Of a stretch of DNA of 24,072 nt, positions 13,143 to 24,072 are shown one piece after another. The stretch is taken from IMG/VR virus record IMGVR_UViG_3300005519_000013, positions 1 to 24,072 of that record; one strand, 5' to 3'. The stretch comes from a virus. Position numbers and translations under genes: made by a program. Under the pieces are notes generated by a model. That model had not been told where the DNA came from. It did not search any database and worked only from the letters and a program-made list of their open reading frames with translations. How positions within the stretch are numbered: the first letter of the stretch is position 1; each line of letters starts with the position of its first letter.

Positions 13143-14354
13143 TCACCAATAATCTCGGTAAATTGCCTTGTGAATCCTGGCGCCTAGCCATTTTATGACA
13201 GGAACCGCCTTACTGTTACCAAGCGCCTTATAGCGGTGGCCATCAGGGCAATCGGCCGCCTCCTTTCCCGCCCAGGGTATAAGCGTGTAGTCATCCTCAT
13301 AACCCATCAGGCGCTCATATTCACGAGGCGTCAGGCGCCGCGCCTGGCGGCCCTGAAAGACCGCATTCTCAAGCCCCCAGTTTGAAGCCAGCGGGTGCGC
13401 GATCTCGACCGAGACATCTGGATCCTGGGTGCCATGGACGACAAACGTCTCTGACTCTGCATCGTTCCTCGCGCCGTGCGCCGTCAGGGTCGCCGATTGG
13501 AACAATGGCCCGCCAGCGGTCAAGCCGTGACCTCCGTAGGCCGGCTGACCAGCCATGACCTCGACCGCCGGCCCATCCTCCCCCTCGCAATTCGGGCAGC
13601 CCCAGACGCCTAAATCTTCTCCGTAGAGGTGCCCGCACCCGCAATGGAAAGCAGGACCGAATGGAGCTCTTCCGGCAAGGTCTTGCCCCTGGCCTCGGCA
13701 CGGCGGAGTATCCCGGCGCTCGCCTTCGCGCTCAAATAGAACCGAGGCGGGATCGAAGTCGTCTCGAGCACTTGCGACAACGAACACACGGCGCCGTCGT
13801 TGGGCCAGGCCGAAATATTCGGCGTTAAGAACCCGCCACGCGATTGCTCTTTTGGGTCCATACACACAACCAGCGTGCGACCACGTTTTCCCTGCAGGCT
13901 GCAGCGGGCAGTCTTCCCCAGCAAGCGCGCCAAGAAAACATCCGAAGGCGTTGGCCTTGTCCTCGAGGACTCCGACGACGTTTTCCCACACGATGACGCA
14001 CTCGTCATCTCCTCGCTGGACTCTAACAAGGTCAATTGCATCTGCGATCTCCACGAATTTGACGGTTAAGGCCCCGCGATCGCCGGCAAGGCCCTCGCGG
14101 AATCCGGCGACACTGAAATCCTGACAGGGAGTTCCGCCCACGAGAACGGCAGGCGCGGCCGCCTCGCCCGAAAGGATCTTTCTGACCAATCCCATGGCAT
14201 CTCCAAGGTTTGGCACCTGAGGGTGACGGTATGCCAGCACAGCGCACGGAAACGGCTCGGTCTCACTCAGCCAGGCAGCACGCCACCCCAGCGGCCGCCA
14301 CGCCACTGAGGCAGACTCGATGCCACTGCATACGCTTGCATAATCGATTTGCAC
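13143..14354 (-). CDS. C5 cytosine DNA methyltransferase (Dcm-type)
   Basis: 403-residue C5-methyltransferase; it transfers a methyl group from S-adenosylmethionine to cytosine. Motif I is YASVCSGIESASVAW, motif IV carries the catalytic Pro-Cys loop GGTPCQDFSVAG (Cys77), motif VI is WENVVGV, motif VIII is QRRRRVF and motif X is ALGNSKAVPVIKWLG. The target-recognition part contains a Cys pattern (C-x-C at 238-240 and C-x2-C at 253-256) resembling a zinc ribbon. The start is taken as GTG at 14354 because AGGGGA lies seven bases ahead; a GTG at 14375 is upstream. No restriction endonuclease partner is in the window, so it is an orphan, plausibly protecting phage DNA. It has its own promoter and operator. 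Confidence 0.9.
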   Translation of the reverse strand: MQIDYASVCSGIESASVAWRPLGWRAAWLSETEPFPCAVLAYRHPQVPNLGDAMGLVRKILSGEAAAPAVLVGGTPCQDFSVAGFREGLAGDRGALTVKFVEIADAIDLVRVQRGDDECVIVWENVVGVLEDKANAFGCFLGALAGEDCPLQPAGKTWSHAGCVYGPKRAIAWRVLNAEYFGLAQRRRRVFVVASARDDFDPASVLFEREGERRDTPPCRGQGQDLAGRAPFGPAFHCGCGHLYGEDLGVWGCPNCEGEDGPAVEVMAGQPAYGGHGLTAGGPLFQSATLTAHGARNDAESETFVVHGTQDPDVSVEIAHPLASNWGLENAVFQGRQARRLTPREYERLMGYEDDYTLIPWAGKEAADCPDGHRYKALGNSKAVPVIKWLGARIHKAIYRDYW

Positions 14355-14386
14355 AGCAGAATCCCCTATCAACACTCGATATGGGG

Positions 14387-18066: not shown

Positions 18067-18097
18067 TGCGTTTTTGCGCTTTTGCGTATTTACGCAA
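18067..18097. repeat. 8-bp-period array with palindrome upstream of repA (locus 3 of 3)
   Basis: Units GCGTTTTT, GCGCTTTT, GCGTATTT, ACGCAAGG; the last two form the palindrome TTGCGT-attt-ACGCAA (18082-18097), abutting the repA ribosome binding site. Confidence 0.82.
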
Positions 18098-18105
18098 GGG
18101 GCACC

Positions 18106-21100
18106 ATGACGGACAAGAAGCACCAGAACGCCTTAGCAGCGTTCTATCAGGAACGATTCCACTCTCGGCCCGAAGACCTGGCTGACTACTGCTTTGGCGA
18201 TATTTCGTCGATTGCGGCAGAGGTCGGCGTCGATTGGTCATCAATCTCTAATGGCGTGAGATTCACGGCAGGCCCGAAATCGGCGCCCATCGGCGGCAAA
18301 ATAGGCTGGACCGACAAAAAGCACCGGGGCAAGCTCGCTGTATGGGCCGACGAGCGTGAGATCAAGCTCGATGACGGCATTAAGCTCAAGCTGCCTTTCC
18401 TGACGTTCAACCACAACAACACGGCGATCGGCTCCAGTAACTGGAGCGGATGGCAGGCCCTGCTCGAGCTGTACCGCATCCAAGGCGGTAAGGTGCCGTC
18501 AGCAGAGCAAGTTAAATGGCGTGAAGCGCAGGAATCCCGGGCCGCCGAACGCGCCCGGCGCCAAGAGGAGGCAGAACAGCTTGAGCGTGAGGCTCACGCC
18601 CGCAAGATTGCCGAGCGTGATGCCTTCGAGGCCGCTTGGTTCAAAGGTGGCCGCCACGAGTTCCCGATCATTGCATACGGGAAACCAGCCACGGGCTCGG
18701 TCGAAGTCCTGGGCGAAGAGGATGGCTCGGCGCCTTACCTGCAGAAAAAACAGATTGGCGAGATTGCCCAATTCTGCCGCCTACAGCGCATGCGCGACCG
18801 AGGCGGCGAGTTTACTGCTCTGCCATTGTTCGACATCCACGGCCAGTTCGGCGGCGTGCAGCGTCTTTATGCTGACAAAAAGCTGCAGGGCACCGGCGTC
18901 CAGATGGACGGCCTGCACTTCATCATCGGCGATCTCGAAAACGCTGATCGCATCTACAGCGCGGAAGGCTTCGCCACCGGCGCCAGCATCTACCTCGCAG
19001 AGCAGGCAGCAGGGAAAACAGTTGCCGTGATTATCACGCTAAGCGTCGGCAACCTCGTCAAGGTGCTCGCGCTGTACAAGCGCCACCGGCCCGAGCTCAA
19101 GATCGTCAACGCGGCCGATGAGGACCAGTGGAAGCGAGTCGGCAACGCCGGGCGCCTGGCGGCCCTCGAGATCCACCGCGACCACGGCTATCGCGCCATC
19201 CTGCCCGACTTCATTTTTGCAGGAATGCCCCCCGAAGAAGTGGCCGAGGCACGACGCACCCAGAACGGCCCGACCGACTGGAACGACTTCCACATCCGCC
19301 ACGGCCTCAAGGCTACCGCGAAGGCCCTGCGCTCCCACGCCTCGCTCAAGGCCGAAAAGGACTATTTCGCCTATTGCCTGCAGCGCGTCATGGCGGGCAG
19401 CACGACCGAGGAGGCGGCAGCCCTCACCGCCATCGGTGCAGGCATGATGCTCGCCCCGATCAAGTACGGCACCAAACAGGTTATTTCGCTCGTCCTCAAA
19501 GCGCTCCCGGCTGGCTTCTCCGGCAATATTTTCAAGATAAAGCGCCGGGCCTTGTGGCTGGCCAAGATCAAACTTTCAGAGGCCCAGCAGTTGCGCGGCT
19601 TCTCGCCGACCGCCCTGGCTCGCCCAGGTATCCGTCATATCAAGATCAAGGGCATCCGCGCCAGCCACGGCGGCACGCTTATCCCGAACCACGTCGCCGA
19701 CCTCGTCGAGGGGCTCGAGGGCTGCATCATCGTCCGATCGCCAATGGGCAGCGGCAAAACCGACAACCTGATCGGCCCAGTGATGCGCAACTCGAAGCGC
19801 GCGGGCTACCTGGCTCACCGCATCACCCTCATGGACGACGCGGCGAACCGCCTGCAGATCCGCCATTACTCGGACGTCCTAGCCGTTGAAATGCGCGACG
19901 TCACGCACATGGCCTGCTGCGTCAACTCGATTACCAACTCCCGCTTTTACAGCACCGCGACCGACCGAAACTGGTTTACCACGCTCGAAACGCTCTGCAT
20001 CGACGAGGCCAGCCAAGTTATCCGCCACGTCACCAGCGGCCCAGTAGAGGGCCCGGTCCGGGTGATGGATACCATGCTCGAGGCGATGGCCAAGGCTAAG
20101 CGCGTGCTGCTCTGCGACGCCGACGCCAACGATTCAGTCATCAGCCTTTGCGAGGAGGCGTGCCCAGGCACCCCGATCACTATCATCGAAATCGAAGGCA
20201 CCATGGATCACGTCGCGGTGCGCTTCGGCGACGCCGACGAGGTCTGGCAGAAGGCTCTCGAGCTGATCCACGGCGGCAAGCGCGTCCTTGTGGCCAGCGA
20301 CTCCGCGGAGAGCGCAAAACGCCTGGCCGTCCTCGCCCTGGAGAAAAACCCCAAGCTGCGCCTGCTGCTGATTTTCCGCGACTCCAAGTCAGATCCGGCG
20401 GTCGAGGCGTTCCTCGCCAACCCGAGCGAGGAGGCTGTCAACTATGACGTGTTGATCTACTCGCCCGCGATCAGCTCCGGCGTGTCGATGACTCGCCCAC
20501 ATTTCGAGCACCATATCGGCCTATTCAGCGGCAACACCGTAGGCCCAAGCGACGCCGTGCAGATGCTTCGCCGCGACCGTACCGCGCGCAGCTATCTGAT
20601 CGGCATCGGGCACAGCAACGTGCAGCGCGATACCGACCGCGAGGCGATCTATCGTGGCCTAGTGGCGGCGGATGAGGTCGCCTGCTCATTCGAGGAGACC
20701 ACCGACGAGATCCTGCTGCGCCGCAAGAAAACCGCGTTCGATGAGCTCTATCTCTCGTGCGTCACCAACGAGAACCGCGCCAAGAACAATTTCGCGAACA
20801 ACCTGCTGCTGATGCTCTACGCCGACGGCTATCAGGTCTCCCGCATGGATGGCGACGCGCTGCTCGCGAAACTGTCGCGCACCAACCGCAAGCGCGCAGG
20901 CGAGCTGGTGTTCGCCCAGCGCCTCGAATTGATCGAAAGCGTCACCACGCCGACCGAGGAGGAGTTCGCCCGGTTGAACCGCATGGAGATCCGCAGCGAG
21001 GCCGAATCAGCCCGCGTCGACCGCTTCCAGATCGAGCACCAGCTCGGAGTCGAAACCATCCGCGCCGACGACGTCGCTTTCTACGACGACGGTGGGATCT

Positions 21101-21879
21101 CGAAGGTAGTCGCCCTTGAGCTGCTCCAGGCCGACGAGGCGCAGGCTCTCGCCTTCGATAAGGCGCAACGCAAGTCCAAGGTCACCTTGACCAAGACGCG
21201 CTTTAAAACGCCTGCCAGGGCCTTCCTGCGCGATGTCTTCGAGATCCTTGGTGTAGACCCAATGACCGGCGAGGGGGAGTTCACCTCGGCAGCCTGCCGC
21301 CAGGTCCTGGCCAAGATCACCGCGACCCAGGCCTCGGCGGAAATGTACAACGCTCTGCGCCTGGGCAAGTTGGTCAAGTTCGGGGCCAAGCGCTGCTGCG
21401 CGACCACCGTTGTGCAATCGATCCTGCGCCGCCTCGGTCTCGACGTGTCGAAGCGTAAGAGCCGTGGCCAGCATCTCTACTGCATCAACCCCGAGCACTG
21501 GTCATTCATCACAGGTTACGTCAACAACCGCGCCGTCGCGGGCGTTCACTCCCTTGCCACTCACGAGCACCCGTGCCCGCACGAGCCCCGCCTTGCGATG
21601 GAGAACGTCGATTCGGCCGTTACCCTCGATGCGAGGGATACTTCGCAGAGTGTTGATATAGCACCAGATGAAAAGTATCCCTCGCTGCAGATCCGCGAAC
21701 GTATCTACGCCGCCGCCCGCTCTGCCTTCGATCCTCTCGGTAATTCTCTGTCGATGTTGATCGAGATCCTGACGCCTGAGGTCGCACGTAGTTTCGCGAA
21801 GGAGGGGGCCGACAGCAGCATGATTCGATTCATCTTGCAGCACGCGGACAGAGCTCTAAGCTCGGCGGTTGAGGCCTGA
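18106..21879 (+). CDS. repA: RepA, N15-type primase-helicase replication initiator
   Basis: 1257 residues, close to N15 RepA (1324), the multifunctional replication protein of linear phage-plasmids. The ATG at 18106 has AGGGG just ahead. Domains: an N-terminal helical/primase-like part with a coiled-coil segment around 140-180; a toprim-like part with Glu287 in SAEGFATG and acidic residues in NAADEDQW (338-340); an SF2 helicase with Walker A SPMGSGKT (Lys551), DEAx box LCIDEASQ (Asp633/Glu634), SPAISSGVSMTR (786-797) and motif VI QMLRRDRTAR (819-828); and a ~400-residue C-terminal part of unknown fold. In N15 the origin lies within repA, and the same may apply here. A possible weak terminator is at 21886-21905. 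Confidence 0.93.
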   Translation: MTDKKHQNALAAFYQERFHSRPEDLADYCFGDISSIAAEVGVDWSSISNGVRFTAGPKSAPIGGKIGWTDKKHRGKLAVWADEREIKLDDGIKLKLPFLTFNHNNTAIGSSNWSGWQALLELYRIQGGKVPSAEQVKWREAQESRAAERARRQEEAEQLEREAHARKIAERDAFEAAWFKGGRHEFPIIAYGKPATGSVEVLGEEDGSAPYLQKKQIGEIAQFCRLQRMRDRGGEFTALPLFDIHGQFGGVQRLYADKKLQGTGVQMDGLHFIIGDLENADRIYSAEGFATGASIYLAEQAAGKTVAVIITLSVGNLVKVLALYKRHRPELKIVNAADEDQWKRVGNAGRLAALEIHRDHGYRAILPDFIFAGMPPEEVAEARRTQNGPTDWNDFHIRHGLKATAKALRSHASLKAEKDYFAYCLQRVMAGSTTEEAAALTAIGAGMMLAPIKYGTKQVISLVLKALPAGFSGNIFKIKRRALWLAKIKLSEAQQLRGFSPTALARPGIRHIKIKGIRASHGGTLIPNHVADLVEGLEGCIIVRSPMGSGKTDNLIGPVMRNSKRAGYLAHRITLMDDAANRLQIRHYSDVLAVEMRDVTHMACCVNSITNSRFYSTATDRNWFTTLETLCIDEASQVIRHVTSGPVEGPVRVMDTMLEAMAKAKRVLLCDADANDSVISLCEEACPGTPITIIEIEGTMDHVAVRFGDADEVWQKALELIHGGKRVLVASDSAESAKRLAVLALEKNPKLRLLLIFRDSKSDPAVEAFLANPSEEAVNYDVLIYSPAISSGVSMTRPHFEHHIGLFSGNTVGPSDAVQMLRRDRTARSYLIGIGHSNVQRDTDREAIYRGLVAADEVACSFEETTDEILLRRKKTAFDELYLSCVTNENRAKNNFANNLLLMLYADGYQVSRMDGDALLAKLSRTNRKRAGELVFAQRLELIESVTTPTEEEFARLNRMEIRSEAESARVDRFQIEHQLGVETIRADDVAFYDDGGISKVVALELLQADEAQALAFDKAQRKSKVTLTKTRFKTPARAFLRDVFEILGVDPMTGEGEFTSAACRQVLAKITATQASAEMYNALRLGKLVKFGAKRCCATTVVQSILRRLGLDVSKRKSRGQHLYCINPEHWSFITGYVNNRAVAGVHSLATHEHPCPHEPRLAMENVDSAVTLDARDTSQSVDIAPDEKYPSLQIRERIYAAARSAFDPLGNSLSMLIEILTPEVARSFAKEGADSSMIRFILQHADRALSSAVEA

Positions 21880-22040: not shown

Positions 22041-22328
22041 ATGCAACAGTTGGACAGAATCGACGGGGCCACCACAGCCCTGCGAAGGATTGACGCTGTA
22101 CTCAGTATGATCCTGCAAGTCGGGCCAGACGCCCGCCTTAGCGAGGTCATGGAGGCGAATAGTTTGATTCGAGATGAAGTGACGCGGGCTCTTTCGATCC
22201 TCGAGGATGGGGATCACATCGAGAGCGCCTGCATAGAAGAAGGGCCGGTGCCGTCAGCGGTTCAGCCTTCAGCGCCAGCCCAGGGAGGGGCAGCGGTGGT
22301 AACCCTTAGGCCTTCTCTGCGAGGGTAA
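22041..22328 (+). CDS. Small hypothetical protein between repA and tel
   Basis: 95 residues, no family recognised. The ATG at 22041 is preceded by AGGAGGG at a rather long spacing of about 11. Residues 1-58 form two helices (ATTALRRIDAVLSMILQ and EVMEANSLIRDEVTRALSIL), and the C-terminal third is Pro/Ala-rich and probably disordered. It runs toward the convergent protelomerase gene and overlaps its 3' end by 23 bases. The two-helix pattern is common in small Pseudomonas-type hypothetical proteins, but a match is not claimed. Confidence 0.55.
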   Translation: MQQLDRIDGATTALRRIDAVLSMILQVGPDARLSEVMEANSLIRDEVTRALSILEDGDHIESACIEEGPVPSAVQPSAPAQGGAAVVTLRPSLRG

Positions 22329-23904
22329 AGGCCTCCCGCAAAGCCGTCATGCGGTCCGGACTCTTGCAGGTCGCGACCTCAATCCCGTTAACGCTGGCCA
22401 CTGCAACCCACTCACCATCGTCTGCCTTGTGCGATGTCATGTGCGGCTTAGCCTTGGCCACCACGGAGGGAACCTCGGCCATCGTATTTGCCGCGTGGGC
22501 CGGTACTCCCAGGGCATCCGCTGCGATCTCAAAATATTCTTTGATGTTGGGCCGATAGCTACCAACGTTGACCGAGATAGCCCGCTGATTGATCTTGGCG
22601 AGGGGATCCGCCTCGATCGCCGATTTAACCCAATCATGGATCCGCTCGAGGCCAGCCCGACCTTTTATTTTCGGGTGATCGTCCAGAGTTTTCAGGCCCT
22701 CGAGGCGACTCGCGAACTTGTGAGCGGCGGCCCTTGGCGGCTCGTCCTCATAGTGAATCTTGAACTGCTTATAGCTTTCCTGGGTCTCGAGATCCTCATG
22801 CCCGAGCATCTCGCGCCAGAACACCTCGGCGCTCTTTTTCGCCCAGCGAGGGTCGTGCGTGAAATGAGTCTCGAACATGATCCGTGCCCAAATCGCGCGG
22901 GTGTCCTTGAAAACGCGGGTCTCGTCGTTGAAGGTCCGTTTTGCGAGCATGTTGAGCGTCTTCGCCGTGCGGCGGTTCACTTCGGTCGCGTCCATGCCCT
23001 GCAGGCTTGAGCCCTCGGGCAGTGACCGCAGACGATCAATCGCCGCGAGCACCACGTCCGCGGCAACGAGGGTGTAAATGCGGTAGCTCGAGCCGTAGTC
23101 GACCCCGAGGCGCTGTTTCGCCTGGCCACTGAACTCGAGCTCGAACTCGCCGACCTTCTTGAACCGGCCCTGCGTCAGAACCTCGAAGGCTCGGCGACCG
23201 GTGGCCATGGCCACGCCCAAGGCGAGGTGCGAGAAGGTGCTCGAGGAGAGCATCTCGGCAGCGGTGGCCACGTACCAGTGATAGCCGATGTCGATAGTGT
23301 TGAGGGCCTTCTCCTCGAGGATCGCGGCCGCATGGTCGGCCATTTGGTCACGGGTAACCGATGGCAGGTTCAAGTGGCGCATGATCTCGTGGTCGATTTT
23401 CATCGCTTTCACGTCGAGATAGGCCGCCTCGTTGCCGTCGCGCTTGATCTTGTCCTTGAGGGCCTTATAGGCCAGGCGTAGGGGGACGATGTCCGTCATT
23501 TCCGCCATGGCATGCAGCTCGGGGGTGTACTCCGGGTGATGCTTGGCCATCCGCCGACAGGTCTCCTCGATCGCATGGTGCCGCCAGTTCTGCGCCTGGA
23601 CTGCGTTGCGCAGCCTGGTCAGGTAACGGCGATAGCTCGAGGCCTTGAGCTTGTCCTCGGGGGCCTTGCGGCCGTCCTCGTACAGTTTCGTTTTGATGCG
23701 CTGGGCCAGGCGCCCGATGCGTTTGGTTTTCTCGCCGCGACTGGTGCTCTCGTCGCAGTCGATCTTCTCGACCTCCTCAATCATCCATTTGATGATGTCG
23801 CTCAAAACGACCTTCTGGCGGACCTGGCCACCGTAATTGCCGTAACCTGATTCTGGATACTCGAGCGGCGTGCGTGCCTCCTCGATGCTCTTTGCGTTGA
23901 CCAT
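22306..23904 (-). CDS. tel: Protelomerase (telomere resolvase, TelN/TelK family)
   Basis: 532 residues; this enzyme cuts the replicated telomere palindrome and rejoins strands into covalently closed hairpins, so the prophage persists as a linear plasmid. The tyrosine-recombinase-like active site is readable: Arg in MATGRRAFEVL (237/238), Lys in SGQAKQR (263), K-x2-R in FKDTRAIW (333/336), His in LGHEDLETQ (369) and nucleophile Tyr in ESYKQFKI (378). These match in order the R-K-K/R-R-H-Y set of TelK/TelN. Length fits phiHAP-1 and VP882 Tel (about 530-540; N15 TelN is 631). The ATG at 23904 has GGAGGGG ahead; the upstream ATG-like extension at 23946 overlaps the promoter. The C-terminal ~45 residues form a separate small domain. 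Confidence 0.93.
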   Translation of the reverse strand: MVNAKSIEEARTPLEYPESGYGNYGGQVRQKVVLSDIIKWMIEEVEKIDCDESTSRGEKTKRIGRLAQRIKTKLYEDGRKAPEDKLKASSYRRYLTRLRNAVQAQNWRHHAIEETCRRMAKHHPEYTPELHAMAEMTDIVPLRLAYKALKDKIKRDGNEAAYLDVKAMKIDHEIMRHLNLPSVTRDQMADHAAAILEEKALNTIDIGYHWYVATAAEMLSSSTFSHLALGVAMATGRRAFEVLTQGRFKKVGEFELEFSGQAKQRLGVDYGSSYRIYTLVAADVVLAAIDRLRSLPEGSSLQGMDATEVNRRTAKTLNMLAKRTFNDETRVFKDTRAIWARIMFETHFTHDPRWAKKSAEVFWREMLGHEDLETQESYKQFKIHYEDEPPRAAAHKFASRLEGLKTLDDHPKIKGRAGLERIHDWVKSAIEADPLAKINQRAISVNVGSYRPNIKEYFEIAADALGVPAHAANTMAEVPSVVAKAKPHMTSHKADDGEWVAVASVNGIEVATCKSPDRMTALREAFTLAEKA

Positions 23905-23920
23905 GTTACCCCCTCCAAGT

Positions 23921-24053
23921 GCATACACACATAACCCTAGCACCAATTATACAATAGTCAACACATACACATCAAGCCCTCTCTACTAGTTAATACACAT
24001 TTAGCCCTCTCCCACACTTAGTTAGCATGGTAGAGAGGGCCTCATGTGTATGC
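23921..24053. repeat. Telomere-proximal repeat cluster
   Basis: Four related elements with core (G)CATACACAT then AGCCCTCTC: R4 23921-23940 (degenerate), R1 23964-23986, R2 23992-24012 (partial), R3 inverted 24052-24030. R1 and R3 form an inverted repeat with 23-bp arms and two mismatches around a 43-base non-palindromic centre. Similar flanking repeats surround the telO core in N15. The core palindrome itself is not seen inside the window and may lie beyond 24072. Confidence 0.75.
23946..23975 (-). promoter_or_regulatory. tel promoter
   Basis: On the minus strand TTGATG (23975-23970), 18-base spacer, TATAAT (23951-23946; perfect -10). Start near 23939 leaves a leader of about 35 bases. The -35 lies inside repeat R1, so a protein bound there would repress tel. 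Confidence 0.7.
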
Positions 24054-24072
24054 ACATTTCCGCATTCTATAC

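Follow-up and report, generated by a model that had tools for sequence, protein, structure and literature searches.

The repeats that surround the promoter of a putative protelomerase gene at one end of an uncultured phage raise the question of which protein binds them, and to what end. The window analyzed here, entered as a complete virus contig of 24,072 bp, otherwise has the gene content typical of a temperate phage: baseplate J, capsid, portal, GpA-type terminase, lysozyme, Q antiterminator, C5 methylase, S24 repressor, CII-like protein, and RepA. RepA is the usual neighbor of the protelomerase gene (tel) in linear plasmid phages. In the window, a RepA-like replication protein (18082–21879, plus strand; phrog_4913 replication, 6.8e-291; same order in phiHAP-1) likewise adjoins tel. 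A 95-aa ORF with no family match (22041–22328, plus strand) is convergent with tel and overlaps its 3′ end; L019, a relative, has a similar ORF, and an ORF occupies the same place in phiHAP-1. The C5 cytosine DNA methylase gene lies at 13143–14375 (minus strand), where phiHAP-1 instead has an annotated DNA adenine methyltransferase. A ParA-like gene, marking the partition side, was seen only at the left ends of relatives, and the window lacks that side. Because a 39,001-bp relative (IMGVR_UViG_3300042934_000449) is collinear with the window at 66%–78% identity, and its other end begins with GGGAAATGTGCATACATGTGAGGCCC, matching the window half-site, followed by the ParA-like gene, the window most likely represents the right-hand ∼24 kb of a temperate telomere phage of ∼39 kb, present as a linear plasmid prophage.

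The tel gene occupies 22306–23904 on the minus strand and encodes 532 aa from the ATG at 23904. A TTG start at 23946 (546-aa frame) was rejected, as it falls at the −10 hexamer of the promoter, and the ATG is preceded by the Shine-Dalgarno-like GGAGGGGG (23909–23916, minus strand). The product matches the Pfam domains ResT-TelK_cat (3e-32), TelK_stirrup (1.2e-8), and TelK_N (5.8e-7), and its best solved relative is TelK (2v6e, 3.9e-55). Residues R237, K263, R336, H369, and Y378 are invariant in nine homologs and, when aligned with TelK and with the TelA active-site residues listed in PMC3558466, correspond to a tyrosine-recombinase-like active site. This sequence evidence for membership in the TelK family is decisive. 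The first-pass annotation had named the gene correctly, and the window carries a TelK/TelN-type enzyme, as do the N15/phiHAP-1-like telomere phages.

The same annotation had assumed that the telomere core lies unseen, further on. Half of the core is in fact present at 24063–24072, and the record ends on its dyad axis. The window's reverse complement begins with GTATAGAATG, a 10-mer that occurs once in the window. Pseudomonas linear plasmid-prophages have exactly this stretch as their half palindrome, the full axis palindrome reading CATTCTATAC|GTATAGAATG. The half palindrome of phiHAP-1 and VP882 (GTATAGTATG) differs from it by one change; in these two and in Halomonas-type phages the full palindrome is CATACTATAC|GTATAGTATG. 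In relatives with longer records, a palindrome centered on TATAC|GTATA precedes tel. Because the reverse complement of the window starts with half of the relatives' whole palindrome, base 24072 is, by sequence comparison, the dyad axis and the end of the right telomere (telR). The target palindrome thus lies just upstream of tel, with one half in the window and the other outside the record. Other contigs of the family likewise end at the axis or a few bases beyond. In a single member (L025, IMGVR_UViG_3300034196_000044) the center is the odd TATAC-A-GTATA, which may be real or may reflect a sequencing error; TATAC|GTATA is found in every other member.

The physical end of the linear DNA is probably a hairpin, and both the sequence order and the contig ends are consistent with a hairpin-ended linear form. 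The record could instead stop at 24072 through an assembler break at the palindrome of telRL in a circular or virion form. Assemblers commonly stop at palindromes, several relatives' contigs run 2–35 bp past the axis, and virion-form genomes such as phiHAP-1 carry an intact telRL mid-genome. We consider such a break rather unlikely, given that the opposite end of one relative's contig carries a telomere half in the order of a linear prophage, and that assemblies of public Pseudomonas plasmids are head-to-head dimers, the form predicted for hairpin read-through. The identity of the site is unchanged by either explanation.

Outward from this axis, repeats of the motif AGGGCT-nnn-TGTGTATG were located by motif and profile scans; their register is counted from the axis in the orientation of tel. 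The inverted element GAGAGGGCCTCATGTGTATG (24033–24052, plus strand; motif match 24036–24052) is in register 20−/21−. It is followed on the minus strand by GAGAGGGCTAAATGTGTATT (23992–24011; motif match 23992–24008) in register 64+/65+, GAGAGGGCTTGATGTGTATG (23964–23983; motif match 23964–23980) in register 92+/93+, and CTAGGGTTATGTGTGTATGC (23921–23940; motif match 23922–23938) in register 134+. The four copies described in the first-pass annotation are therefore all present. A fifth, weaker copy had been overlooked: GGAAATGTGCATAC (24048–24061, minus strand) lies beside the axis, inside the telomere half-site, and aligns by position with an element at 8+ in relatives, although it is 1 bp nearer the axis and scores below the profile threshold in the window itself. 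The 23-bp inverted pair was also borne out (23964–23986 and 24030–24052, 91% complementary), and the direct copies at 23965–23983 and 23993–24011, 28 bp apart, are 89% alike.

In the whole 24-kb record only four sites are within two mismatches of AGGGYTNNNTGTGTATG, all in the last 151 bp. When the last 168 bp were shuffled and sites with up to three mismatches counted, a mean of 0.05 sites and a maximum of 2 in 5000 shuffles were obtained, compared with the 4 observed. When all positions of the window are scored with a profile built from other phages only, the three direct copies take ranks 1–3 and the inverted copy rank 5. Every motif match with at most two mismatches in eight related contigs is no more than about 200 bp from a telomere. 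A scan of viral contigs for exact ATACACATNNAGCCCTCTC returned one match, in an unrelated contig (L008), and this was judged to be chance. Because the repeats look like the outer telomere half-site with the axis box missing, the copies would be expected to be bound by Tel but not cut.

The spacing of the elements is shared well beyond this phage. In most relatives, elements are found at 8+, 21−, 65+, 93–97+, and 134–138+. The window has them at 20−, 64+, 92+, and 134+, with a weak match near 8+, so that the positions 20/64/92 are shifted by 1 bp relative to 21/65/93. Phages with longer arrays have extra copies further out but keep those at 65 and 93. Identity between elements in register is 0.40, compared with 0.29 at random register (maximum 0.33), and the spacer sequence between elements has a pairwise identity of 0.31, near chance. 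The elements keep nearly fixed distances from the axis across phages whose spacers are alike only at near-chance level. The layout had been thought unlike any known telomere. This does not hold: when the telomeres of phiHAP-1 and VP882 were compared, as had been proposed, they showed much the same register as the window, which dozens of Pseudomonas- and Halomonas-type relatives share.

The outermost elements enclose the tel promoter. As reported from the first reading of the sequence, a perfect TATAAT (23946–23951) and a TTGATG (23970–23975) are present on the minus strand. Their spacer is 18 bp, they match at 10/12 positions, and together they form the only sigma-70-like site found in 22300–24072. 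The −35 hexamer lies inside the 23964–23983 element, the −10 hexamer is 121 bp from the axis, and the 23921–23940 element covers the predicted transcription start of tel. The proposal that the promoter is embedded in telomere repeats is upheld, as the repeats belong to the telomere of Tel and embrace the promoter. The same sandwich was found in 45 loci, which reduce to 22 distinct ones at 90% identity (the loci share descent, and the counts are not independent), with the −35 inside one element, a spacer of 17 or 18, and the next element starting 7–8 nt after the −10. Of 17 cases in which the distance could be measured, 15 have the −10 at 121–125 bp from the axis and two at 189–190 bp; in longer arrays, the promoter shifts outward along with the last two elements. 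The strict promoter pattern was not matched in L040, L043, L047, L012, and others, which have element pairs about 40 bp apart near their tel starts.

Our preferred interpretation, to which we assign a probability of roughly two in three, is that the repeats form a Tel-binding telomere array whose outermost pair is an operator that shuts down tel. The repeats would be sites at which the phage's Tel binds, each copying the outer half-site but lacking the axis box. Those near the tip (8+, 21−, 65+, and 93+) would assemble a telomere nucleoprotein array of fixed spacing. The two outermost copies, about 41–42 bp or about four helical turns apart, would hold the tel promoter, one over the −35 and the other over the transcription start. 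Once there is enough Tel to occupy the telomere, the outermost sites would fill and tel transcription would be shut down. Both the identity of the binder and repression from the outermost elements are inferred.

Tel may instead occupy the repeats solely for end protection or architecture, as a loop or filament of the kind proposed for TelN, leaving tel outside Tel control and the promoter among the repeats merely because the gene abuts the telomere. The elements at 65+ and 93+ are indeed kept even where the promoter lies further out (L010, L012, L031, and L040), and PMC12624138 proposes that TelN assembles on the N15 repeats to protect against Mre11-Rad50. Copies also occur at the left telomere (telL) of a relative with no promoter close by, and therefore promoter control cannot be the only role of the repeats. 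Against a purely architectural role, the outermost pair travels with the promoter in longer arrays, with the start-site element 7–8 nt after the −10, and Tel bound at the −35 and the transcription start would presumably exclude RNA polymerase. Mainly because the promoter and the last two elements move together, an operator role for the outermost pair is preferred, and architecture alone appears improbable. It is much harder to sustain that the repeats are an origin, centromere, or operator for another phage protein, such as RepA, a ParB-like partition protein, or a repressor. Proteins of these kinds often act on direct repeats close to replication and partition genes, and RepA is the next large gene. 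However, the motif recurs in the telomere half-site, which is a site for Tel; close matches are confined to telomeres, with none near repA or the repressor; and where another lineage has a different telomere core, its repeats are different too. RepA, partition proteins, and the repressor were mostly rejected as owners of the repeats on these grounds.

This covariation bears directly on the proposal that Tel binds the array. In N15, phiKO2, PY54, MAR, and the GTAACGTT group the element sequence is different, and the core motif again recurs toward the tel promoter. Telomere core arms are more similar to their own promoter region than to the promoter regions of clades with other motifs. With non-overlapping core and promoter stretches, L025 left out, and 11-base windows, a permutation test by clade gave a self similarity of 9.58 versus 8.50 (SD 0.21; p = 5e-5), the clades being our own grouping and related phages not being independent. 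Similar values were obtained with 9- and 13-base windows (p about 1e-4 or less). Because the repeat motif changes with the core between clades, the natural reader of both would be the protelomerase, an assignment that the covariation supports but does not prove. The distant lineages L075–L082 and L096 differ in their telomere motifs (the axis TTTAC|GTAAA together with GTAACGTT elements, and TGTACA elements in MAR), but an array of this kind again extends to the tel promoter.

The closest described systems share this organization to different degrees. In the Hapunavirus telomere phages phiHAP-1 (Halomonas) and VP882 (Vibrio), tel lies beside the TATAC|GTATA palindrome, and the order of elements, promoter sandwich, tel, small convergent ORF, and RepA is that of the window. 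Their Tel proteins are 48% and 44% identical to that of the window, respectively; their axis box is GTATAGTATG rather than GTATAGAATG, and a different element at 38–42+ replaces some copies. The Pseudomonas linear plasmid-prophages pNY5520-NR, pPcorr-B21-055, pPHPALO418, and pSTW0522-72-1 have the axis box GTATAGAATG and register of the window, a CyRepA1-type RepA adjoining tel, and Tel proteins 52%–57% identical over the aligned part; their elements read GGTGTATG where those of the window read TGTGTATG, and some arrays are longer. The promoter sandwich of the window is also found in pNY5520-NR and pPcorr-B21-055. Three public "circular" plasmids of 75–79 kb (NZ_CP096940, NZ_CP102178, and NZ_AP022474; L009, L010, and L012) carry tel twice, divergently, around a long perfect palindrome, as if read-through had joined two ∼38-kb linear plasmid prophages head to head. 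Judged by its Tel and telomere, a contig assigned to the cyanobacterium Spirulina subsalsa (L089, NZ_JAIHOM010000047.1) is a telomere phage of the Halomonas type and probably comes from an associated bacterium. In Escherichia phage N15 (telRL/TelN), phiKO2, and PY54, tel is also beside its palindrome and motif copies reach the tel promoter region, but the core is centered on CGCGCG rather than TACGTA, the element sequence is different, and over the aligned part Tel shares about 31%–36% identity. N15 and relatives have degenerate flanking-motif copies on both sides, and for the 310-bp N15 target with its degenerate repeats a possible higher-order TelN assembly has been discussed (PMC12624138).

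Telomere phages, telRL sites, and flanking repeats are already known, and Pseudomonas relatives of VP882 and phiHAP-1 have been noted (PMC12042878). No paper on protelomerase autoregulation, the fixed register, or the promoter sandwich was found in the open-access papers searched, and older phiHAP-1 or N15 papers may describe such repeats; the fixed register and promoter sandwich may be an unreported comparative observation.

The analysis places an uncultured phage among the hairpin-telomere phages, with its telomere half known to the base. Of wider use is the comparative result that, in dozens of phages, probable Tel sites are held at fixed distances from the tip and the last two flank the tel promoter. 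More tentatively, the fixed-register array of half-sites might be a shelterin-like end complex with the outermost pair as operator, through which Tel would gauge how fully its telomere is occupied and adjust its own level, an arrangement that might also operate in telomere-phage lineages with unrelated motifs. If true, this would constitute a feedback loop between the state of the chromosome end and expression of the resolvase. Why protelomerase targets far exceed the stretch needed for cutting, and how the level of the resolvase is kept in check, would become directly testable questions.
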